This document shows positions 28,096 through 37,567 of a stretch of 64,000 nucleotides of DNA, one piece after another. Source of the stretch: Microbacteriaceae bacterium 3FA27C10 (lineage in GTDB: Bacteria > Actinomycetota > Actinomycetes > Actinomycetales > Microbacteriaceae); contig SCNI01000001.1 of assembly GCA_005502775.1 (NCBI GenBank), positions 62,001-126,000 of the forward strand, written 5' to 3'. Within the stretch, counting starts at the first letter, position 1; each line of letters begins with the position of its first letter. Position numbers and translations under genes: made by a program. The notes below the pieces were generated by a model. That model searched no databases. It was not told the DNA's origin and was given only the letters and a program-made list of their open reading frames with translations.

Positions 28096-28124
28096 TTGAC
28101 GCGGCACTTGTTTTTTGCAAGTGT
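28096..28124 (+). promoter_or_regulatory. Promoter and candidate operator of VOC-HxlR
   Basis: TTGACG (28096-28101), a 17-nt spacer and AAGTGT (28119-28124) form a plausible promoter. The inverted repeat CACTTG/CAAGTG (28105-28110 and 28118-28123) overlaps spacer and -10, so a protein bound there would block transcription. The HxlR protein encoded just downstream is the obvious candidate. Confidence 0.5.
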
Positions 28125-28189
28125 TGAGGCATCCGAAAGACGGAGTTCATCCGGCGCCTCGCGACGGAGCCCACCAGAGGGAGTTCACG

Positions 28190-28630
28190 ATGACCACCAT
28201 GATGTTCGTCAACCTGCCGGTGACCGACCTGGAGCGTGCGAAGACGTTCTACACGGCCATCGGATTCACGATCAACGAGAAGTTCACCGACCACAACGCC
28301 TCGTGCGTCGTGGTCGAGCCCGACCACAGCGCGTTCATGCTCGTGACCCGCGACTACTTCCAGACCTTCAGCGCACGGCCGATCGGCGACCCGTCGAAGG
28401 ACGTCTCGGTGGCGACCTCGATCTTCGTCGACACGCGCGACGACGTCGACACGGCGGTGACCAACGGCCTCGCCGCCGGCGGCACCGAGGCGCAGGACGC
28501 GGCCGACTACGGCTTCATGTACCAGCGGCAGCTCACCGACCCCGACGGCAACATCATCGAGTTCGGCTGGATGGACCCGGTGGCCGCCGAGCAGGGCCCC
28601 GAGGCCTACACCGCCCAGCAGCAGGGCTGA
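28190..28630 (+). CDS. VOC family protein (glyoxalase-like)
   Basis: 146-aa vicinal-oxygen-chelate protein with one paired beta-alpha-beta module, starting MMFVNLPVTDLERAKTFY and ending TDPDGNIIEFGW, both typical. Members include glyoxalases and antibiotic-binding proteins; substrate unknown. AGGGAG lies 6 nt before the ATG. The HxlR regulator starts 16 nt after its stop, so the two form an operon. Confidence 0.87.
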   Translation: MTTMMFVNLPVTDLERAKTFYTAIGFTINEKFTDHNASCVVVEPDHSAFMLVTRDYFQTFSARPIGDPSKDVSVATSIFVDTRDDVDTAVTNGLAAGGTEAQDAADYGFMYQRQLTDPDGNIIEFGWMDPVAAEQGPEAYTAQQQG

Positions 28631-28646: not shown

Positions 28647-29303
28647 ATGGCGTCGCGCGACTACGGGCAGTACTCCGGCATCACCCGGGCCATGGAGCTC
28701 GTCGGTGAGCGCTGGGCCCTGCTGATCGTGCGCGACCTGCTCGTGGGGCCGCGCCGCTACGGCGAGCTCGCCGCGGAGCTCCCCCGCATCCCGTCGAACA
28801 TCCTGGCCGCCCGCCTCAAAGAGCTGCAGGCGGCCGGGGTGATCCGGCGGGCGCCGCGGTCGCGCGTGATCCTCTACGAGCTCACCCCGTACGGGCGGGA
28901 GCTCGAGCCCGTCGTGCTGGCTCTCGGCGCCTGGGGGTTCCGCGCGCTCGACGATCCGCGCGAGGAGCAGCTGATCTCCGCGGAGTCGATGACGATGGAT
29001 CTGCGGAGCGCCTTCCGGGCCTCGGTGGCGCGCGAGCTGCCCGCCACCGCCTACGAGGCCCGGTTCGGGGCTTCGGGCGGAACCGAGCTGCTCATCCGCG
29101 TCGACGGCTCCGAACTCGACGTGGCGAGCGGGGGCGGCCCGGGCGACGTGGCGTTCTCCATCGCGGGAGGCGCCGGCATCCGGCAGCTCATCACCGGCGA
29201 ACTGGATGCCGAACAAGCGATCGCCACGGGCGTGGTCGAGCTGCGCCACGGCGACAAGAGCCTGCTCGGCCGCTTCGCGGACACCTTCCACCTCGCGGCC
29301 TGA
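28647..29303 (+). CDS. HxlR family transcriptional regulator
   Basis: 218-aa protein. The N-terminal winged helix (about 8-95, with MELVGERWALLIVRDLLVG and the wing near RVILYELTPYG) is typical HxlR. The C-terminal 90 residues resemble an SCP2-like lipid-binding fold often fused to this type. It probably controls its own operon through the inverted repeat at 28105-28123 (inference). Confidence 0.87.
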   Translation: MASRDYGQYSGITRAMELVGERWALLIVRDLLVGPRRYGELAAELPRIPSNILAARLKELQAAGVIRRAPRSRVILYELTPYGRELEPVVLALGAWGFRALDDPREEQLISAESMTMDLRSAFRASVARELPATAYEARFGASGGTELLIRVDGSELDVASGGGPGDVAFSIAGGAGIRQLITGELDAEQAIATGVVELRHGDKSLLGRFADTFHLAA

Positions 29304-29770: not shown

Positions 29771-30922
29771 TCAGTGCTGGTGCGCCACGTAGGCCACCGG
29801 CTCCGGCAGCTTGGCCTCGGCGCGGATGCGGCGGGACAGCCGCTCGATCGACTTCAGCGCCGCCACCACGTCGACCGCCCGCACCGCGAAGGGCATGGCG
29901 TGGATGGTCTCACCGGGCACGGTGGCCAGCTCCGCCACCTGGGTGAGCTCAGGCGAATCCGCGGAGAGGCCGATCTCGGTGAGGGTCGTCGGCAGGCCCA
30001 CGCGGGTGGTGAACTCGATGAAGTCGCGGATGTCGGCGGTCGGCGCCCCTTCGAGCACGAGCTGCGTGATCGAGCCGATGTTCACCTTCTGCCCGTGCGC
30101 GAGGCCGTGGGTCTGCGGCGCGGCCGTGAGGCCGTTGTGGATGGCATGGGCCGCCGCGAGACCGCCTGACTCGAAGCCGAGGCCCGAGAGCAGGGTGTTC
30201 GCCTCGATGACCTTCTCCACCGAGGGGGTCACGACGTGGTCGCGCACCGCATCCAGCGCGGGCAGCGCGTTCTCCCAGAGCACGTCCCAGCTGAGCCGGG
30301 CGAGCGCGGTGCCGGTCTCGGTCGGCAGGCCACCCGCCATCGTGTTCGAGTTCGACCGCGAGGTGGCGCGCGCTTCGAGCCAGGTGGCGAGCGCATCGCC
30401 GACTCCCGCCGCCAGGAAGGCCGCCGGCGCGTTCGCGACGAGCTGCGAGTCGATCAGAACGAGGTCGGGGTTGCGCGGGAAGAAGCGGTACTCCTCGAAC
30501 GCGCCGTCCTCGGTGTAGATGACGGCGAGAGCGGAGGTGGGCGCATCCGTCGACGCGACCGAGGGCACGGTGACCCAGCGGATGCCCGCGAGGAACCCGG
30601 CCGACTTCACCGCGTCGATCGTGCTGCCGCCGCCCAGGGCGACCACGACATCCGCTCCGGCGTCGGCGATGACGGCCACGAGCCGGTCGATCTCGCCCGA
30701 GGTCGGGATGCCGTTGAACTTCTCGCGGCGCACCGGCAGGCCGGCGGCCGCCAGCGAGGCCTCGACGTCGTGGCCGACGAAGCCCCACACGACGTCGTCG
30801 GAGACCAGCAGCGGGGTGGAGCCGATCGGGGCGAGGTACTCCCCCAGCTTCGTGATGGCCCCGGGGCCCTGCACGTAGCGGCCGGGACTGATGACCGTGC
30901 GGATGGGGATGGTGGTGGGCAT
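29771..30922 (-). CDS. Iron-type alcohol dehydrogenase, glycerol dehydrogenase (GldA) group
   Basis: 383-aa NAD-dependent dehydrogenase. The NAD loop GGGSTIDAVK is near residue 96. The metal ligands fit GldA: the Asp in GVGDALATWLE and His in AAHAIHNGL and HGLAHGQKV. AGGAG precedes the ATG. It is the last gene of a four-gene operon with a zinc alcohol dehydrogenase, DUF59 and amidohydrolase. The substrate may be a small alcohol or polyol from that pathway; glycerol itself is not proven. Confidence 0.85.
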   Translation of the reverse strand: MPTTIPIRTVISPGRYVQGPGAITKLGEYLAPIGSTPLLVSDDVVWGFVGHDVEASLAAAGLPVRREKFNGIPTSGEIDRLVAVIADAGADVVVALGGGSTIDAVKSAGFLAGIRWVTVPSVASTDAPTSALAVIYTEDGAFEEYRFFPRNPDLVLIDSQLVANAPAAFLAAGVGDALATWLEARATSRSNSNTMAGGLPTETGTALARLSWDVLWENALPALDAVRDHVVTPSVEKVIEANTLLSGLGFESGGLAAAHAIHNGLTAAPQTHGLAHGQKVNIGSITQLVLEGAPTADIRDFIEFTTRVGLPTTLTEIGLSADSPELTQVAELATVPGETIHAMPFAVRAVDVVAALKSIERLSRRIRAEAKLPEPVAYVAHQH

Positions 30923-30984
30923 TGCTGACTCCTGACGTCGTTGTCGGATGGATGGGGGTTGAGGAAAGAAGGAAGGCGAGGGGC

Positions 30985-32025
30985 TTACGGGACGAGGATG
31001 GCGCGGCCGCGCACGCGGCCGGCATCCAGGTCGTCGATGGCCTGCTGGAAGTCGTCGAGCGCGTACGTCACCGTGTGCAGTTTCACCAGGCCGCGCGCCG
31101 CCAGCACCATCAGCTCGGTGAGGTCGTCGTAGCTGCCCACCAGATTGCCGATGATGTTGATCTCGTTCGAGATGATGTCGATCGTCGGGATGTCGATGTT
31201 CTCGCCGTAGCCCACGACGAAGAAATCGCCGGCCTGGCGCAGCATCTGCACGCCCTCGGAGGTCGAGCCGCCCTCGCCCACGAAGTCGACCACGACCTCG
31301 GCGCCGTAGCCGTCGGTCAGCTCGAGCACACGGGTGACGTGGGAGCCGTCGGCGGCGGCCACGACCGTGTGGTCGGCCCCGAGCGACGCCGCGAGCTCCA
31401 GCGCCGCCGGGTTGCGGTCGACCACGATCAGCTCCGACGCCGTGAGCGCCTTCAGCACCTGGATGCCGATGTGCCCGAGACCACCCGCGCCGATGATCAC
31501 GCAGCGGTCGGCCGGCCGGAGCTTGCGTGCCGCCTTCGCCGCCGCGTGGTAGGCGGTGAGGCCCGCATCCGCCAGCGCCGCGACCTCCGCCGGCTCGAGC
31601 GAGTCGGCGATCCGGACGACGCTTCGCGCACTCGTCTTGAGGAACTCGGCGTACCCGCCGTGCGTGTCGATGCCGGGGAACTCGCTCTGCGTGCAGTGCA
31701 CGTCGTCGCCCAGCCGGCACGCCCGGCACAGTCCGCAGGTGATGAGCGGATGCACGATCACCTTGTCGCCGACGGCCACGTTCGTGACGGCGCTGCCGAT
31801 CGCCTCCACCCAGCCGGCGTTCTCGTGCCCGATCGTGTACGGCAGGGCGACGCCCGACTTCTGCTCCCACTGCCCTTCCAGGATGTGCAGATCGGTGCGG
31901 CACACGCCGGCGCCGCCGATGCGCACGATCACGTCGAACGGTCCGCTCACCTCGGGCTTCGGGACCTCGGTCAACTGCAGGTCCTGGTGGTAGCCGACCA
32001 CCTGCACGGCTCTCATGGTGCTCAT
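30985..32025 (-). CDS. Zinc-dependent alcohol dehydrogenase (propane-locus type)
   Basis: 346-aa MDR-family enzyme. The catalytic zinc ligands are in GVCRTDLH and GHENAG, and the structural zinc loop is CGLCRACRLGDDVHC. The NAD loop is GAGGLGHIG. The opening VVGYHQDLQL closely recalls the alcohol dehydrogenase of actinobacterial propane monooxygenase clusters (from memory). It overlaps the DUF59 gene by 4 nt (ATGA), with GAAGGAG inside that gene. It probably oxidises a short alcohol to a ketone or aldehyde. Confidence 0.9.
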   Translation of the reverse strand: MSTMRAVQVVGYHQDLQLTEVPKPEVSGPFDVIVRIGGAGVCRTDLHILEGQWEQKSGVALPYTIGHENAGWVEAIGSAVTNVAVGDKVIVHPLITCGLCRACRLGDDVHCTQSEFPGIDTHGGYAEFLKTSARSVVRIADSLEPAEVAALADAGLTAYHAAAKAARKLRPADRCVIIGAGGLGHIGIQVLKALTASELIVVDRNPAALELAASLGADHTVVAAADGSHVTRVLELTDGYGAEVVVDFVGEGGSTSEGVQMLRQAGDFFVVGYGENIDIPTIDIISNEINIIGNLVGSYDDLTELMVLAARGLVKLHTVTYALDDFQQAIDDLDAGRVRGRAILVP

Positions 32026-32840
32026 GCGACGCTCCTTCGCGTGGTTCTGATGAGGGAGGAAACGGGAAAGAAGTTCTCCTCGGCCCGAGGCACCTGGTCG
32101 GCCTCCGAACCGGGGTAGCGGGTGGCGAGCAGGCCACGGCAGAAGTGCGCGTTGCCGTCGATCGAGATACGGGTCGACCGCGCTCGGCGCAGGGCCAGAG
32201 CGGCGGATGCGGCGGGGTACGGCGCTCCGCGGTCGTCGACGAGCACGGGGTCGTGGTCGTCGACGCTCAGCCCGAGTGTTGCGCGCCGCCGGAGCAGCGC
32301 CTCCTTGGCGGCGTCGTCGGGCAGATCGCCGAGCACCACGGATGCGACATCCTGCTCCTGGATGTCGGCCCGGGCCCGCAGCAACGCCGTCAGCGCCCGC
32401 TCCATCGCGGCGGTGTGCGCCTTGCGCTGGAAGGTGGCGCGCAGCTCGTCGAGATCGCTCTCGGCCTCGTGCCTGAAGGTGCCGAGGTAGCCGGCGTCGG
32501 CCGCGAGGCCGCCGTTGATGATGGCGGAGTCGTGGTGGTCGTCGAGCTCGACCACGACGTGGCCGGCCTCGGGCAGCGCCGTGAGCACGTCCTTCGCGTC
32601 CGACGCCATGAGATAGGCGAAGTTCGGCGCGCAGAACGAGGTGGGCAGGCGCAGGTGCACCTCGAGACCGTCGTCGGTGAACCGCACCGAGCGCACGAAG
32701 CCGAGGTCGGTGATGGGCTCGTCGAGCTCGGGGTCGATCACCGCGTCGAGCGCCCGCAGCACGGACTCCTCGGTGAGGGCGAGGAGCGGGGGCGCCTCGC
32801 CCGGCACCGCGCGCGGGGCGAATGCCGTTCGGGGGCTCAT
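32022..32840 (-). CDS. DUF59/PaaD-like metal-sulfur assembly protein
   Basis: 272-aa protein. The N-terminal DUF59 (MIP18) domain covers about 25-110, with the usual DPELDEPITDLGFV and the conserved Cys in LPTSFCAPNF. The C-terminal half is specific to the version found in propane monooxygenase loci. Such proteins are thought to help insert iron or Fe-S into the partner oxygenase. Its ATG overlaps the amidohydrolase stop as TGATG and its own stop overlaps the dehydrogenase start, so all three are coupled. Confidence 0.82.
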   Translation of the reverse strand: MSPRTAFAPRAVPGEAPPLLALTEESVLRALDAVIDPELDEPITDLGFVRSVRFTDDGLEVHLRLPTSFCAPNFAYLMASDAKDVLTALPEAGHVVVELDDHHDSAIINGGLAADAGYLGTFRHEAESDLDELRATFQRKAHTAAMERALTALLRARADIQEQDVASVVLGDLPDDAAKEALLRRRATLGLSVDDHDPVLVDDRGAPYPAASAALALRRARSTRISIDGNAHFCRGLLATRYPGSEADQVPRAEENFFPVSSLIRTTRRSVA

Positions 32841-33883
32841 CAGACCGCCGCCAGGTCTGCCCGCTCGGGCTCGCGCGGTCCGGTCTCCGTCTCGTTCGCA
32901 TCCGGGAGCTGCAGCTCCGCCGGCACCGGGATGTCGTACATCTTCGCGGCGTTGAGACCGAGGATCTTGCGCTTCTGGTCCATCGTGATGGGCGCGTACT
33001 CGGTCATGTCCTCGGGGATCTGGAAGTCCACGAAGGCCTCGATCAGCCACTTCGGGGTCCACAGCGCATAGTCGCTCGAGAACTGGATGCGGTCCTCGCC
33101 GATCCAGTAGATGAGCTCGCCGATGATCTGCGCGAAGTAGCGCGGCCGGGTGTGGATGAAGGGCATCGCCACCGCGAGGCCGCCGTGCACGTTGGGCTCC
33201 TGCGTGGCGATCCAGCAGAAGTCCTCGAGCCGGGGCAGACCGACGTGCTCGACCACGAAGTTCAGGTCGGTGAAGTCGGTGGCCACGTGGTCGATGTCGG
33301 CCACGTCGAAGGCGTCGCGGTCGAGCGGGCGGATGGTGGGGCCCTTGTGCACGTGGATGTTCGTGATGCCCAGCTCCCGGCAGAGCTCGAAGTAGCGGTA
33401 GGCCCAGGGATCGTCGAGCTTCCAGCCGCGGGACTCGCCGTGCCACTCCGCGGTGTACAGCTTCACGCCCTTGAGGTTGAAGCGCTCCGCATCCGCGCGC
33501 AGTTGATCCAGACCCGCCTCGCCGTAGCGCGGGTCGAAGTTGTGGTTGTAGGTGAGCTTGTCGGGGTGCGCCTGGGTCAGCGCCCACGCCTCCTCCGTCT
33601 GGCCGAAGCCGTTCTTGTAGAACTCGGTGAGCGCGGCGGGCTGGAAGATGGCGTGGTCGACGATGTCGTCGGCGAAGACGTCGCGCATGAAGCGCTCGCC
33701 GCCCTGGTAGAGGTACTCCTCGTAGGGCCACTTCTGCTCGGCCGGCGAGAGGTTGGCGTGGTAGTCGTAGAAGCAGTCGATGAACTGCTTGCCGTGGATG
33801 TTGCGCTGGTTCTCGGGCCGCGCATCCCACAACGCCACGTGGGCGTCGACGATGAAGAACTTCTCGCCGTCTTTGGTGTACAT
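32840..33883 (-). CDS. Amidohydrolase family protein of the propane-monooxygenase-locus type
   Basis: 347-aa TIM-barrel protein (amidohydrolase-2). Segments GKQFIDCFYDYH, HVHKGPTIRPLDRDAFDV, FVVEHVGLPRLEDF and SSDYALW are near-identical in style to the amidohydrolase beside mimABCD in Mycobacterium (from memory). The first metal motif reads H15-V-A17 rather than the usual H-x-H, so one ligand is missing. AAAGGAG precedes the ATG. It is first in the operon and divergent from the activator. Function is unproven; homologs are needed for oxygenase maturation. Confidence 0.85.
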   Translation of the reverse strand: MYTKDGEKFFIVDAHVALWDARPENQRNIHGKQFIDCFYDYHANLSPAEQKWPYEEYLYQGGERFMRDVFADDIVDHAIFQPAALTEFYKNGFGQTEEAWALTQAHPDKLTYNHNFDPRYGEAGLDQLRADAERFNLKGVKLYTAEWHGESRGWKLDDPWAYRYFELCRELGITNIHVHKGPTIRPLDRDAFDVADIDHVATDFTDLNFVVEHVGLPRLEDFCWIATQEPNVHGGLAVAMPFIHTRPRYFAQIIGELIYWIGEDRIQFSSDYALWTPKWLIEAFVDFQIPEDMTEYAPITMDQKRKILGLNAAKMYDIPVPAELQLPDANETETGPREPERADLAAV

Positions 33884-33928
33884 GTCTGCTCCTTTGCTGC
33901 ATGCGGGGGATCTGCATCCCTGTCGACG

Positions 33929-33934
33929 ACGTTA
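33929..33934 (-). promoter_or_regulatory. -10 box of the amidohydrolase operon
   Basis: TAACGT on the minus strand lies about 45 nt before the ATG. The palindrome at 33967-33981 is about 33 nt upstream of it, a suitable place for an activator. Confidence 0.4.
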
Positions 33935-33966
33935 GGCGGGCGCCGGGAGGTCGAGCCCGGCCTCCG

Positions 33967-33981
33967 GTCTCAATCTGAGAC
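33967..33981. promoter_or_regulatory. Candidate activator site between operon and regulator
   Basis: GTCTCA-ATC-TGAGAC is a perfect 6+6 palindrome midway between the two divergent promoters (TAACGT at 33929, TAGACT at 34013-34018). A Fis-type activator dimer bound here could drive both sides. Confidence 0.5.
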
Positions 33982-34047
33982 GGGGGCAGGAGACACCGCG
34001 GAGCGGCCGACCTAGACTGACTGCGACGGACGACTGCAAAGGTGCTG

Positions 34048-35589
34048 ATGGACGATCACGCTCTCCCCTCCCGCGCCCAGGTGCACACGGCGCCGATGGC
34101 GGCCATCCCGGCGCGCCTGCTGGCCTCCTGGCAGCGCAGCGAAGATTACGGGGTGCCGCTCGACGAGGTGCAGCCCGTCTTCACCGGCACCTACGACGAC
34201 GAGTCGCTCTTCTCCGAGTGCGGGCGCGAGGTGCTCGCCGAGCTGCACAGCACCCTGGCCTCCGAGCCGGTCGGACTGATGCTGACCGACGCCGACGGCC
34301 TCGTGCTCAACCGGCTGAGCGGCGACCACCAGCTGCTGCAGGCCCTCGACCAGGTGCATCTGGCACCCGGCTTCTCCTACTCGGAGCGGGCCGCCGGCAC
34401 CAACGGGCTCGGTCTGGCGCTCGCCGACCGGGTGCCCACTCTCGTGCGGGCCGACGACCACTACGCGCGCAGCCTCTGCGGCTACACCTGCGCGGCGGCC
34501 CCCATCTTCGACCCCGTGACCGGGCGGCTGGAAGGTGCGGTGAACTTCACCACCTGGTCGGATGCACGCTCCGAGCTGCTGCTCGCCCTCGCGCAGACGG
34601 CGGCGAACTCCACCGCGAACCTGATGCTGGCGCGCTCGCACGGGCACCGTCCGCGGCGAACCGCGCGCGGACAGGTCTTCCGCATCGAACCGCTGCGCCA
34701 CGCGCCGGAGACCGAGCTCGAGCTCTCCGGAGCCTGGACGGATGCGGTGGCTCGCGCCGTCGAGGCGCTCCGGGACGGCCGGATCGTGGCCGCCGTCGGT
34801 GAGCGGGGCTCCGGGCGTGCGACCCTCCTCGCCCAAGCGGAGCGTCAGGTGGGTCCGCGCGACCGGCTGCTCGCCGTGCACGCGCCCGAACCGCACGACG
34901 TCGAGTCCTGGCTGTCGTTCTGGACGCCCGAGCTCGCGCACCCGCAGACCGGGTTCGTGATCTGCGACACCGACCAGCTGCCCGTGGCGGCGGCGGAGCG
35001 GCTCCGCGAGCTGCTCATCTCCTCTCGCCGTCGGGCGGATTCGCCGGGCGGGGCCTCCGGCGGCGCCCCAGCGCAGGCCGGCAGCGCGGGCGCGAGCGGC
35101 GCCGCGACGAGGGGCGCCACGACCTCGGGCTCGTACGCGATGTCCGCGGAGCGCTTCGACAGCATCCCCGCTCCGCTGGCCTCGCTGGTCGACACCGTGA
35201 TCCAGGTGCCGCCCCTGCGCGAGCGGGTGGCCGACATCCTGCCGCTCGCCGACCGTCTCGCCCTCCGGGCGCGGGGCCGACGGGTCGACATCACCCCGGC
35301 CGCGGCGCGAGCGCTCATCGACTACGCCTGGCCGGGGAACGTGGCCGAGCTCGCGAGCGTGATGAAGGAGGCCGCCGTGCGCACCGATGCGATCGAGGCC
35401 CGGCACCTGCCGCCCGAGCTGCTCTCGCGGGCCGAGCACCTGCCGCGCATCAAGGCGTTCGAGCGCGACGAGATGGTGCGGGTGCTCACCCGCCCGGGCA
35501 TCGCGGTCGAGGACGCCGCAGCCGAGCTGGGGATGAGCCGCGCCACCGTCTACCGCAAGCTCGCGCTGTACGGCATCCGGCTGCCCTGA
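34048..35589 (+). CDS. GAF/Fis-type transcriptional activator (MimR/AcoR-like)
   Basis: 513-aa regulator in three parts: GAF-type sensor (about 55-195), a worn AAA+ region (about 230-440) and a C-terminal Fis-type helix-turn-helix ending in MSRATVYRKLALYGIRLP. The AAA+ part lacks the GAFTGA loop and has a weak Walker A (GERGSGRATLL), as expected where sigma-54 is absent. I chose the ATG at 34048 with AAAGG 5 nt upstream over a GTG at 34042. Divergent to the catabolic operon, it is the likely activator, as MimR is for propane monooxygenase. Confidence 0.87.
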   Translation: MDDHALPSRAQVHTAPMAAIPARLLASWQRSEDYGVPLDEVQPVFTGTYDDESLFSECGREVLAELHSTLASEPVGLMLTDADGLVLNRLSGDHQLLQALDQVHLAPGFSYSERAAGTNGLGLALADRVPTLVRADDHYARSLCGYTCAAAPIFDPVTGRLEGAVNFTTWSDARSELLLALAQTAANSTANLMLARSHGHRPRRTARGQVFRIEPLRHAPETELELSGAWTDAVARAVEALRDGRIVAAVGERGSGRATLLAQAERQVGPRDRLLAVHAPEPHDVESWLSFWTPELAHPQTGFVICDTDQLPVAAAERLRELLISSRRRADSPGGASGGAPAQAGSAGASGAATRGATTSGSYAMSAERFDSIPAPLASLVDTVIQVPPLRERVADILPLADRLALRARGRRVDITPAAARALIDYAWPGNVAELASVMKEAAVRTDAIEARHLPPELLSRAEHLPRIKAFERDEMVRVLTRPGIAVEDAAAELGMSRATVYRKLALYGIRLP

Positions 35590-35615: not shown

Positions 35616-36653
35616 CTAGCGCCAGCCGAGCGCCGGGGCGACCTCGGTGAGGATCGACTCGAGCACGTGCGCGTTGTAGGCCACGCCGAGCTGGTTCGGC
35701 ACCGTCAGCAGCAGGGTGTCGGCCTCGGCGATGGCCTCGTCCTCGGCGAGCTGCTCCACCAGGCGCTCCGGCTCGGCCGCGTAGCTGCGGCCGAAGATGG
35801 CGCGCAGGTTGGCGTCGATCTGGCCGATCTGGTCCTGGCTGTCGCCATCGTGGCCGAAGTAGGCGCGGTCCTGGTCGTTCGTGATCGCGAAGATGCTGCG
35901 GCTCACCGAGACGCGCGGCTCGAAGTCGTGGCCGGCATCCTTCCACGCCTCGCGGAACTCCCGGATCTGCTTCGCCTGCTGCACGTGGAACGGCTCGCCG
36001 GTCTCGTCGGCCTTGAGGGTCGACGACTGCAGGTTCATGCCGAGCTCGGCTGCCCAGCGGGCGGTCGCGTTCGAGGCGGCGCCCCACCAGATGCGTTCGC
36101 GCAGACCCTCCGAGTGCGGCTCGATGCGCAGCAATCCGGGCGGGTTCGGGAACATCGGGCGCGGGTTCGGCTGGGCGAAGCCCTCGCCCTTCAGCACCTG
36201 TAGGAAGACCTCCGTGTGCTGACGGGCCATGTCGGCGTCGTCCTCCCCGTCGGCGGGCTGATAGCCGAAGTAGCGCCAGCCCTCGATCACCTGTTCGGGT
36301 GATCCGCGGCTGATGCCGAGCTGCAGTCTGCCGCCGGAGATGAGGTCGGCCGCGCCCGCATCCTCCGCCATGTAGAGGGGGTTCTCGTAGCGCATGTCGA
36401 TGACGCCGGTGCCGATCTCGATGGTCTTCGTGCGCGCGCCCACGGCGGCGAGCAGCGGGAACGGCGAGCCGAGCTGGCGGGCGAAGTGATGCACCCGGAA
36501 GTACGCGCCGTCGGCTCCCAGCTCCTCGGCGGCGACGGCGAGGTCGATCGACTGGAGCAGGGTGTCGGCTGCGGTGCGGGTCTTCGACTGCGGCGACGGC
36601 GTCCAGTGCCCGAAGGAGAGGAAGCCGATGCTCTTGCGATTCGTTGCGGTCAC
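35616..36653 (-). CDS. Luciferase-like (LLM class) flavin-dependent oxidoreductase
   Basis: 345-aa TIM-barrel protein of the F420/FMN monooxygenase superfamily. Typical pieces are the start IGFLSFGHWTP, the barrel segment IEIGTGVIDMRYENPLYMAEDAG and GRLQLGISRGSPEQ. Substrate unknown. The start is a GTG without a clear ribosome site, and the upstream 40 nt give no convincing box, so the start is the weak point. It is convergent with the activator gene and may or may not share the pathway. Confidence 0.85.
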   Translation of the reverse strand: MTATNRKSIGFLSFGHWTPSPQSKTRTAADTLLQSIDLAVAAEELGADGAYFRVHHFARQLGSPFPLLAAVGARTKTIEIGTGVIDMRYENPLYMAEDAGAADLISGGRLQLGISRGSPEQVIEGWRYFGYQPADGEDDADMARQHTEVFLQVLKGEGFAQPNPRPMFPNPPGLLRIEPHSEGLRERIWWGAASNATARWAAELGMNLQSSTLKADETGEPFHVQQAKQIREFREAWKDAGHDFEPRVSVSRSIFAITNDQDRAYFGHDGDSQDQIGQIDANLRAIFGRSYAAEPERLVEQLAEDEAIAEADTLLLTVPNQLGVAYNAHVLESILTEVAPALGWR

Positions 36654-36726
36654 GTGCGGTGCAACGCCGGGCGGGGCGGGGGCATTCCCGGGGTGTCCGT
36701 CCGCGTCCGCAGCGCGCGGGAGTCGC

Positions 36727-36732
36727 TAGGCT
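36727..36732 (+). promoter_or_regulatory. -10 box of the RlaP-like gene
   Basis: TAGGCT lies about 40 nt before the chosen ATG at 36773, leaving room for the GAAAGG ribosome site. Confidence 0.4.
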
Positions 36733-36772
36733 GACCCTCCACGGTCTCGTGGTCATGAAAGGCTCGGACGCG

Positions 36773-37567
36773 ATGCGCGCGATACCGGAGACACTCGACC
36801 CTCGGGTCGTCGAGCAGATCGATACCATGCTGTTCGCGGTCAGCCGCGACGATTCCGTGCGCATCCCGTGGGCGATCGAGAGCGGCAGCCGCGCCTGGGG
36901 CTTCCCGTCGCCCGACAGCGACTACGACTGCCGGTTCATCTACCTGCGCGAGCCCGAGCGCTACGTCTCCCTCTGGCCGGAGCGGGACGTGATCGAGATG
37001 CCGCTCGACGCCGTCTTCGACGTGAACGGCTGGGACCTCGCGAAGGCGGTCAAGCTCATCGTGAAGGGAAACGCGACGGCGATCGAGTGGCTGCGGTCGC
37101 CGATCGTCTACTCGGGTACGCGGGAGTTCCGCGACGCGATGCTCGGCTTTGCCTCCGAGGTCGTCGAGCGCGCGGCCATCGGTCGCCACTACCTGCACGT
37201 CGCGCAGCAGCAGAAGGCCGGATCGCCGTCGCTCAAGCGCGCATTCTCCGTTCTGCGGCCGGCGATGGCCTTGCGCTGGCTGCGCGTGCATCCGGATGCC
37301 GTGCTGCCGCCGATGGACCTGCCCGCGCTGACCGCCGAGAGCGAGGTGCCGCGAGAGGTGGCAAAGGCGATCGCCGAGCTCATCGCGCTGAAGTCGGTCA
37401 CCCGCGAACTCGGTGACGGGCGTCCACCGGCTGTGCTCGAGGCGTTCGTCGCTGCGGAGCTGAGCGCCGCCGAAGGATTCGGGTCGCTGCCGTCGGAGAG
37501 GAACGCGGCCGAGGTACGGCTGGCCGCCGATCGGTTCTTCCGCAGGCAGCTCGACACCTTCGGCTGA
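36773..37567 (+). CDS. RlaP-type predicted nucleotidyltransferase
   Basis: 264-aa protein of the DNA polymerase beta-like RlaP family. The nucleotidyltransferase signature GSRAWGFPSPDSDYDCRFIY near residue 38 carries the two catalytic Asp, and NGWDLAKAVKL and IEWLRSPIVY follow as in the family. Homologs sit in predicted RNA repair loci, but here it stands alone with no ligase or RtcB nearby. ATG candidates at 36755 and 36773; I prefer the latter. The activity is inferred from the motif only. Confidence 0.8.
   Translation: MRAIPETLDPRVVEQIDTMLFAVSRDDSVRIPWAIESGSRAWGFPSPDSDYDCRFIYLREPERYVSLWPERDVIEMPLDAVFDVNGWDLAKAVKLIVKGNATAIEWLRSPIVYSGTREFRDAMLGFASEVVERAAIGRHYLHVAQQQKAGSPSLKRAFSVLRPAMALRWLRVHPDAVLPPMDLPALTAESEVPREVAKAIAELIALKSVTRELGDGRPPAVLEAFVAAELSAAEGFGSLPSERNAAEVRLAADRFFRRQLDTFG

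Follow-up and report, generated by a model that had tools for sequence, protein, structure and literature searches.

The locus described here raises the question of what the accessory genes of a propane monooxygenase do in a genome in which no monooxygenase is found. It occupies positions 29771–35589 of the window, that is, the whole stretch of 64,000 nucleotides analyzed from Microbacteriaceae bacterium 3FA27C10, and holds an operon of four genes (AMD for an amidohydrolase, D59 for a DUF59 protein, ADH for a zinc alcohol dehydrogenase, and GldA for a glycerol/diol dehydrogenase) with a divergent regulator gene. An earlier note had likened this set to the genes around the propane monooxygenase operons prmABCD/mimABCD, and had suggested that the oxygenase was lost or moved, or that the cassette was reused. 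The cassette may best be understood as a stand-alone branch of the prm/mim regulon, for short secondary alcohols or diols, a reading to which we give a probability of about 0.5. It probably does its own job, apart from the oxygenase. In a literature search, the stand-alone cassette as such was not found in print.

Organization of the Locus and Its Kinship to prm/mim Loci

All five genes were intact and stood in the order earlier described. On the minus strand, AMD (32840–33883) encodes a member of the amidohydrolase_2 family (PF04909, E 1.4e-47), and its stop codon has one base in common with the start codon of D59 (32022–32840, minus strand). The stop of D59 in turn has four bases in common with the start of ADH (30985–32025, minus strand), which encodes a zinc-type medium-chain alcohol dehydrogenase (PF08240 and PF00107). 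GldA (29771–30922, minus strand) follows 62 bp downstream of ADH. The regulator (34042–35589, plus strand) combines a GAF domain, an AAA lid and a Fis-type helix-turn-helix (HTH_8), and is separated from AMD by a gap of 158 bp, in which a promoter scan gave no match. These overlaps and domain matches confirmed the earlier description of a translationally coupled amidohydrolase, DUF59 protein and zinc alcohol dehydrogenase, accompanied by a GAF/Fis activator and a GldA-type dehydrogenase. Furthermore, AMD, D59 and ADH evolve under purifying selection, the ratio of nonsynonymous to synonymous substitution rates (dN/dS) being 0.03–0.22 in 12/12 comparisons with four Microbacteriaceae loci.

The order AMD–D59–ADH and a Fis-type regulator are common to the window and to the prmABCD/mimABCD loci of Gordonia TY-5, Rhodococcus and Mycobacterium smegmatis, and the layout of the prm locus in the available parts of PMC6849523 and PMC4428276 matches this order. 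In contrast to those loci, the window cassette has neither the oxygenase subunits nor a dedicated second GroEL, its regulator lies directly beside AMD, GldA is added, and its AMD carries an HxA instead of an HxH motif. In a careful tree of 45 AMDs, the 11 prm-linked rows from Rhodococcus and Mycobacterium formed one clade (support 99/97), the 24 stand-alone-type rows formed another (100/99), and the two were joined with support of 100/100. In this phylogeny, the stand-alone AMDs are the sister clade of the prm-linked AMDs. The kinship to mim/prm loci proposed in the earlier note is upheld by this placement, by the gene order in the available part of PMC6849523, and by a common palindrome described below.

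Distribution of the Cassette and Absence of the Monooxygenase

No oxygenase gene was present inside the locus, and a profile search with PF02332, which covers the alpha and beta hydroxylase subunits, gave 0 matches in the host genome and none in its 14 control genomes. The same model found positives elsewhere, namely in 27/396 genomes of the phylum, in 5/5 plasmid records with soluble di-iron monooxygenase (SDIMO) genes, and in 18/51 further genomes. With 115 contigs and a completeness of 99.88%, the host assembly leaves a slight chance that a PF02332 gene lies in a gap. PF00118 (GroEL) had one match in the host genome, and a dedicated second chaperonin was without a match. The absence of the oxygenase subunits and of the second GroEL, claimed earlier from the locus, therefore extends to the searched genome.

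The named loci are the best 80 of at least 579 AMD relatives from one scan. The comparison with related species that the earlier note had called for showed the regulator, D59 and ADH all adjoining AMD in 75 of these 80 loci. Four of the five exceptions end at contig edges (L007, L016, L026, and L049); the fifth, L017, has no adjoining regulator, and its SDIMO cluster lies farther on, on the opposite strand. SDIMO genes were near the cassette in 2 of the 80 loci (L015 and L017), and ADH adjoined AMD in 77. The unit of regulator and AMD–D59–ADH was present across actinobacterial families, for the most part in genomes with no PF02332 gene. Among distinct cassette-bearing genomes, 58/70 were without PF02332 and 12/70 had it. 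This count consists of 33 genomes of one scan (3 with PF02332), 36 genomes of a second part (9 with PF02332) and the host genome. The second part was derived from 51 genomes by leaving out 7 with only a prm-linked AMD, 2 with both types (G777 and G865), and 6 genomes taken as duplicates from their identical positions on the contigs (G718, G719, G720, G011, G192, and G573); G729, a partial match, was left out of the count. In the phylum sample, AMD (E ≤ 1e-60) was found in 44/396 genomes, compared with 27/396 for PF02332.

Accordingly, the earlier idea of reuse was right, and a loss or move of the oxygenase peculiar to this genome was unsupported, because the unit recurs across families and most of the genomes have no PF02332. 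That the cassette is the decaying remnant of a prm operon, left after this lineage had lost the oxygenase, is very improbable. The sister position of its AMD and the operator common to both kinds of loci would fit such an origin, but the genes are intact and overlapping, dN/dS is low, the operator is retained, and the unit occurs in many families.

The closest named locus, among the matches listed, was that of a Herbiconiux metagenome-assembled genome with an AMD 97% identical, and the H. gentiana locus was found in another genome with the genus code of the host. Judged by these sequences, the host is a Herbiconiux relative. Within the family, full-length D59 was present in 5/299 genomes, the host included, and the remaining matches were weak and confined to the DUF59 part; the cassette is therefore patchy in the family.

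The Palindrome and the Regulator

A palindrome, GTCTCA-N3-TGAGAC, lies at 33967–33981 (no strand) in the gap between the regulator and AMD, where it precedes the operon as a candidate operator. A shorter form, GTCTC-N5-GAGAC, was found in 65/84 regulator–AMD gaps, compared with a mean of 0.11 and a maximum of 1 in 100 dinucleotide shuffles. The full form occurred once in the host genome, with the same count when one mismatch was allowed; a reversed control pattern gave 0 exact sites and 1 with one mismatch. No site was found in 5/5 congeners without the cassette, and 18/20 cassette-bearing genome entries had an exact site, the two without being G141 and G718. In G694, the palindrome site is not located at the cassette.

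The palindrome also preceded the alpha genes of prm-type monooxygenases, being exact in 10/15, changed at one base in 4/15, and absent in 1/15 (L335), and was upstream of 0/8 loci of other SDIMO types. Membership of the window operon in the prm/mim regulon is thus indicated by its candidate operator. In the available text of PMC4428276, prmA has palindromes over a putative −35 box, which are likened to an Escherichia coli Fis site; that text does not contain the letters GTCTCA or TGAGAC, and its palindromes may or may not correspond to the present one.

In Mycobacterium sp. AT1, for which the available part of PMC6849523 reports the three genes detached from the monooxygenase, the palindrome stood before prmA and before the detached cassette (L079), which is of the stand-alone type like that of the window. 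The difference is that AT1 has the monooxygenase, whereas the genome of the window has no PF02332 match. In L015, an SDIMO operon and the cassette are adjacent, with three copies of the palindrome. In Arthrobacter liuii, four sites correspond to three cassettes and one detached gldA, which lies 5 kb off behind transposase-like open reading frames (ORFs) and has a copy 107 bp upstream. Extra sites in AT1 (C1) and Cryobacterium (C16) were taken as chance occurrences, since they are inside ORFs. As an outcome that would speak against it, the earlier note had named a complete mimABCD set at another place but controlled by the same regulator. The host shows no such set, PF02332 being without a match there and the operator present at a single site, although this arrangement does occur in some Mycobacterium, such as AT1.

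The regulator of the window has the same GMSRAT-x-YRK end of the helix-turn-helix as the SDIMO-linked L185 and L186. The GAFTGA motif was not found in it, and its Pfam AAA match covers the lid only, so that it has neither the GAFTGA loop nor the full AAA core of a sigma-54 activator; to our knowledge, sigma-54 is absent from actinobacteria. MimR is said to respond to acetone. The divergent GAF/Fis regulator would sense a small alcohol or ketone, bind the palindrome at 33967–33981 and, once bound, turn on AMD–D59–ADH–GldA, while the oxygenase with its GroEL would be an optional extra operon of the same regulon. The palindrome provides a sequence-defined regulon and, if the supposed inducer is the right one, a ketone- or alcohol-responsive promoter may be obtained from the locus.

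The Dehydrogenases and the Proposed Pathway

ADH was 75–79% identical to prm-linked copies, and by this sequence kinship it may be a NAD-dependent secondary alcohol dehydrogenase; Adh1 of Gordonia TY-5 is reportedly a secondary alcohol dehydrogenase. GldA scored 491.8 bits with NF006941 (glycerol dehydrogenase, cut-off 336), which places it in that subfamily, and 406.4 with the propanediol/glycerol equivalog NF047954, under the cut-off of 700. Its status as an addition, as the earlier note had it, holds in that it is found in few loci; it is nevertheless a member of the regulon, because the detached gldA of A. liuii has its own copy of the palindrome. In the proposed pathway, ADH and GldA would use NAD to oxidize short-chain secondary alcohols, or acyloins and vicinal diols, the possible substrates being 2-propanol, 1,2-propanediol and glycerol-like compounds. 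In L028 and L030, a 2,3-butanediol/acetoin-type short-chain dehydrogenase/reductase (SDR) directly follows ADH (303.7 bits, just under the cut-off of 304.35).

Several observations weigh against the stand-alone alcohol cassette. The exact palindrome was missing from 19/84 gaps (3 one-base variants and 16 with neither form). GldA was within 8 kb of AMD in only 8 of the best 80 loci and an SDR was near it in only 4, too seldom for either to define the core function. Acetone carboxylase, tried as a partner pathway, was found in 2/43 genomes (38 cassette-bearing entries, in which some genomes appear twice, plus 5 congeners without the cassette), and was rejected as having no link to it. In addition, some stand-alone-type genomes also hold a prm-type SDIMO (AT1 and others), and the cassette may serve an oxygenase in trans there.

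Other companions of AMD in the best 80 loci were an ABM-family protein (within 6 kb in 31) and a DUF1097 protein (within 6 kb in 19). The ABM gene was also seen in prm loci, as is reported in the available text of PMC4428276. GldA relatives of 49–50% identity lay near AMD–D59 or SDIMO genes in L179, L181, L243, L247, L250, L252 and L253, and these seven loci belong to one distant actinobacterial family.

D59 and the Metal Motif of AMD

The literature search found no known role for AMD or D59 of propane monooxygenase loci. D59 has a PF01883 domain (E 1e-14, residues 24–97 only) with a conserved Cys70, which makes it a member of the DUF59/FeS_assembly_P family, and its C-terminal domain is helical. 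Two residues, Cys70 and Cys234, were invariant in 57/57 rows. The predicted model (predicted local distance difference test, pLDDT, 90.9; predicted template modeling score, pTM, 0.82) resembled CIAO2B/DUF59 structures over its first 100 residues (Foldseek probability 1.00, best E 2.3e-3), with no Foldseek match at E ≤ 0.001 and no convincing match for the C-terminal domain. D59 is therefore like the CIAO2, SufT and PaaD-type carriers in the N-terminal domain and its Cys, and differs from them in the extra helical C-terminal domain, in which one Cys is invariant and for which Foldseek gave no counterpart among solved structures. D59 adjoined all AMDs of at least 50% identity other than those of L007, L016 and L221, which lie at the ends of contigs, and was missing beside the AMD of L226 (48%) and a distant group of 33–36%. 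D59 may carry a metal or an Fe-S cluster, with AMD, its constant neighbor, as its putative first partner.

The AMD–D59 pair could instead load metal into another metalloenzyme encoded elsewhere, with ADH and GldA as passengers, which we consider unlikely. D59 resembles proteins of Fe-S assembly, namely CIAO2B and DUF59 proteins, and this likeness agrees with such a role, as do AMD–D59 pairs without ADH, either beside GroEL and SDIMO genes (Caballeronia and Aminobacter) or without either as neighbors (Peribacillus and Rhizobium N324). However, ADH is a near-constant neighbor of AMD in the best 80 loci, the single operator site of the host genome would leave the client under other control, and no client metalloenzyme was found, PF02332 being the sole family sought.

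The AlphaFold model of AMD (mean pLDDT 90.9) was nearest to the Bordetella TIM-barrel protein 3irs and to PF04909-type decarboxylases and hydratases such as LigW, LigJ and dihydroxybenzoate decarboxylase (12–19% identity). K141, H177, H179, H213 and D271 were invariant in 62/62 aligned AMDs; these residues and those of the HxH motif are presumably metal ligands, as in the superfamily. Position 17, where the second histidine of the HxH motif belongs, held Ala in 31 rows, His in 30 and a gap in 1. The window AMD has His15 and Ala17, an HxA motif in place of the complete HxH.

Two sets, of 136 rows and 49 loci, were scored for the residue at this position, with the motif unmatched in 10/136 and 1/49, respectively. 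All scored rows with an adjoining regulator had Ala (86/86 and 38/38, together 124/124); as some genomes were entered twice (for example, L002/L232, L004/L233, L237/L295, L079/L257, L073/L282, L075/L278, and L078/L281), these represent about 117 distinct loci. SDIMO-linked AMDs without the regulator had 14 His, 2 Ala and 2 unscored in the first set and 8 His and 1 Ala in the other. Those with neither had 22 His, 1 Ala, 1 Gly and 8 unscored, and 1 Ala and 1 unscored, respectively. The exceptions to a simple His/Ala rule are the SDIMO-linked Ala rows L015 (which has the regulator too), L017, L185 and L270; the Peribacillus AMD (L113) has Ala as well. L270, an SDIMO-linked Mycobacterium row (G730), is nested in the His-type prm clade, and on that ground the change from His to Ala arose more than once; a grouping of all actinobacterial Ala rows including L270 was not rejected (approximately unbiased test, p-AU 0.075). 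The Ala/His switch is useful as a branch marker.

We regard it as rather improbable that the central catalytic role belongs to AMD, which would cleave, hydrate or decarboxylate the carbonyl made by ADH or GldA, in a cassette that handles reactive carbonyls. The nearest PF04909-type folds (LigW, LigJ, and the ACMSD family) are decarboxylases and hydratases, the five invariant residues are kept, and in other phyla the neighbors include a gene for a glyoxalase in Rhizobium N324 and one for a DJ-1/PfpI protein in Peribacillus. On the other hand, AMDs of the window clade have HxA rather than the HxH of these enzymes, which should weaken such chemistry in all regulator-linked forms, and no substrate is indicated. 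In the stand-alone alcohol cassette, AMD, its metal site being altered, would have an ancillary part. A tentative and not very likely extension is that it is a former metal hydrolase that now serves D59 as a scaffold or in metal handling, the loss of one HxH ligand marking the change, and that AMD–D59 is an older general device taken up several times by propane monooxygenases, not an accessory left behind. This history may have run in either direction: the SDIMO-linked Ala-type L185 branched basally to the stand-alone rows (94/89), and in a wider tree of 85 rows the stand-alone/SDIMO label needed 11 changes, 9 of them forced by well-supported branches. A cassette with regulator and operator and without an oxygenase opens the role of AMD and D59 to study in isolation.

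AMD–D59 pairs were also found inside SDIMO clusters on plasmids of Caballeronia, Paracoccus, Aminobacter and Ponticoccus. For those of Peribacillus, Thermomicrobium, Halomicrococcus and Rhizobium N324, no SDIMO was found nearby in an incomplete plasmid gene table, nor by tblastn. The Peribacillus plasmid locus (L113) consists of a regulator, an HxA-type AMD, D59 and the DJ-1/PfpI gene, and an SDIMO was not found near it. In the Mycobacterium prm-type loci L349, L353, L355 and L186, a different ADH-like gene (32–33% identity) follows the coupling protein and replaces AMD–D59, and the genomes of these loci hold a stand-alone cassette at another place.

Neighboring Genes

Just past GldA, a glyoxalase/VOC-family gene (28115–28630) is followed by an HxlR-type regulator gene (28647–29303); among the loci compared, this pair was not a conserved companion of the cassette. 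On the other side, a luciferase-like monooxygenase gene (35616–36653) converges on the regulator, and among the best 80 loci it was beside the cassette in L001 only. A further gene encodes an RlaP-family protein (36644–37567; PF10127, E 7.7e-61), a DNA polymerase beta-like family of RNA repair.

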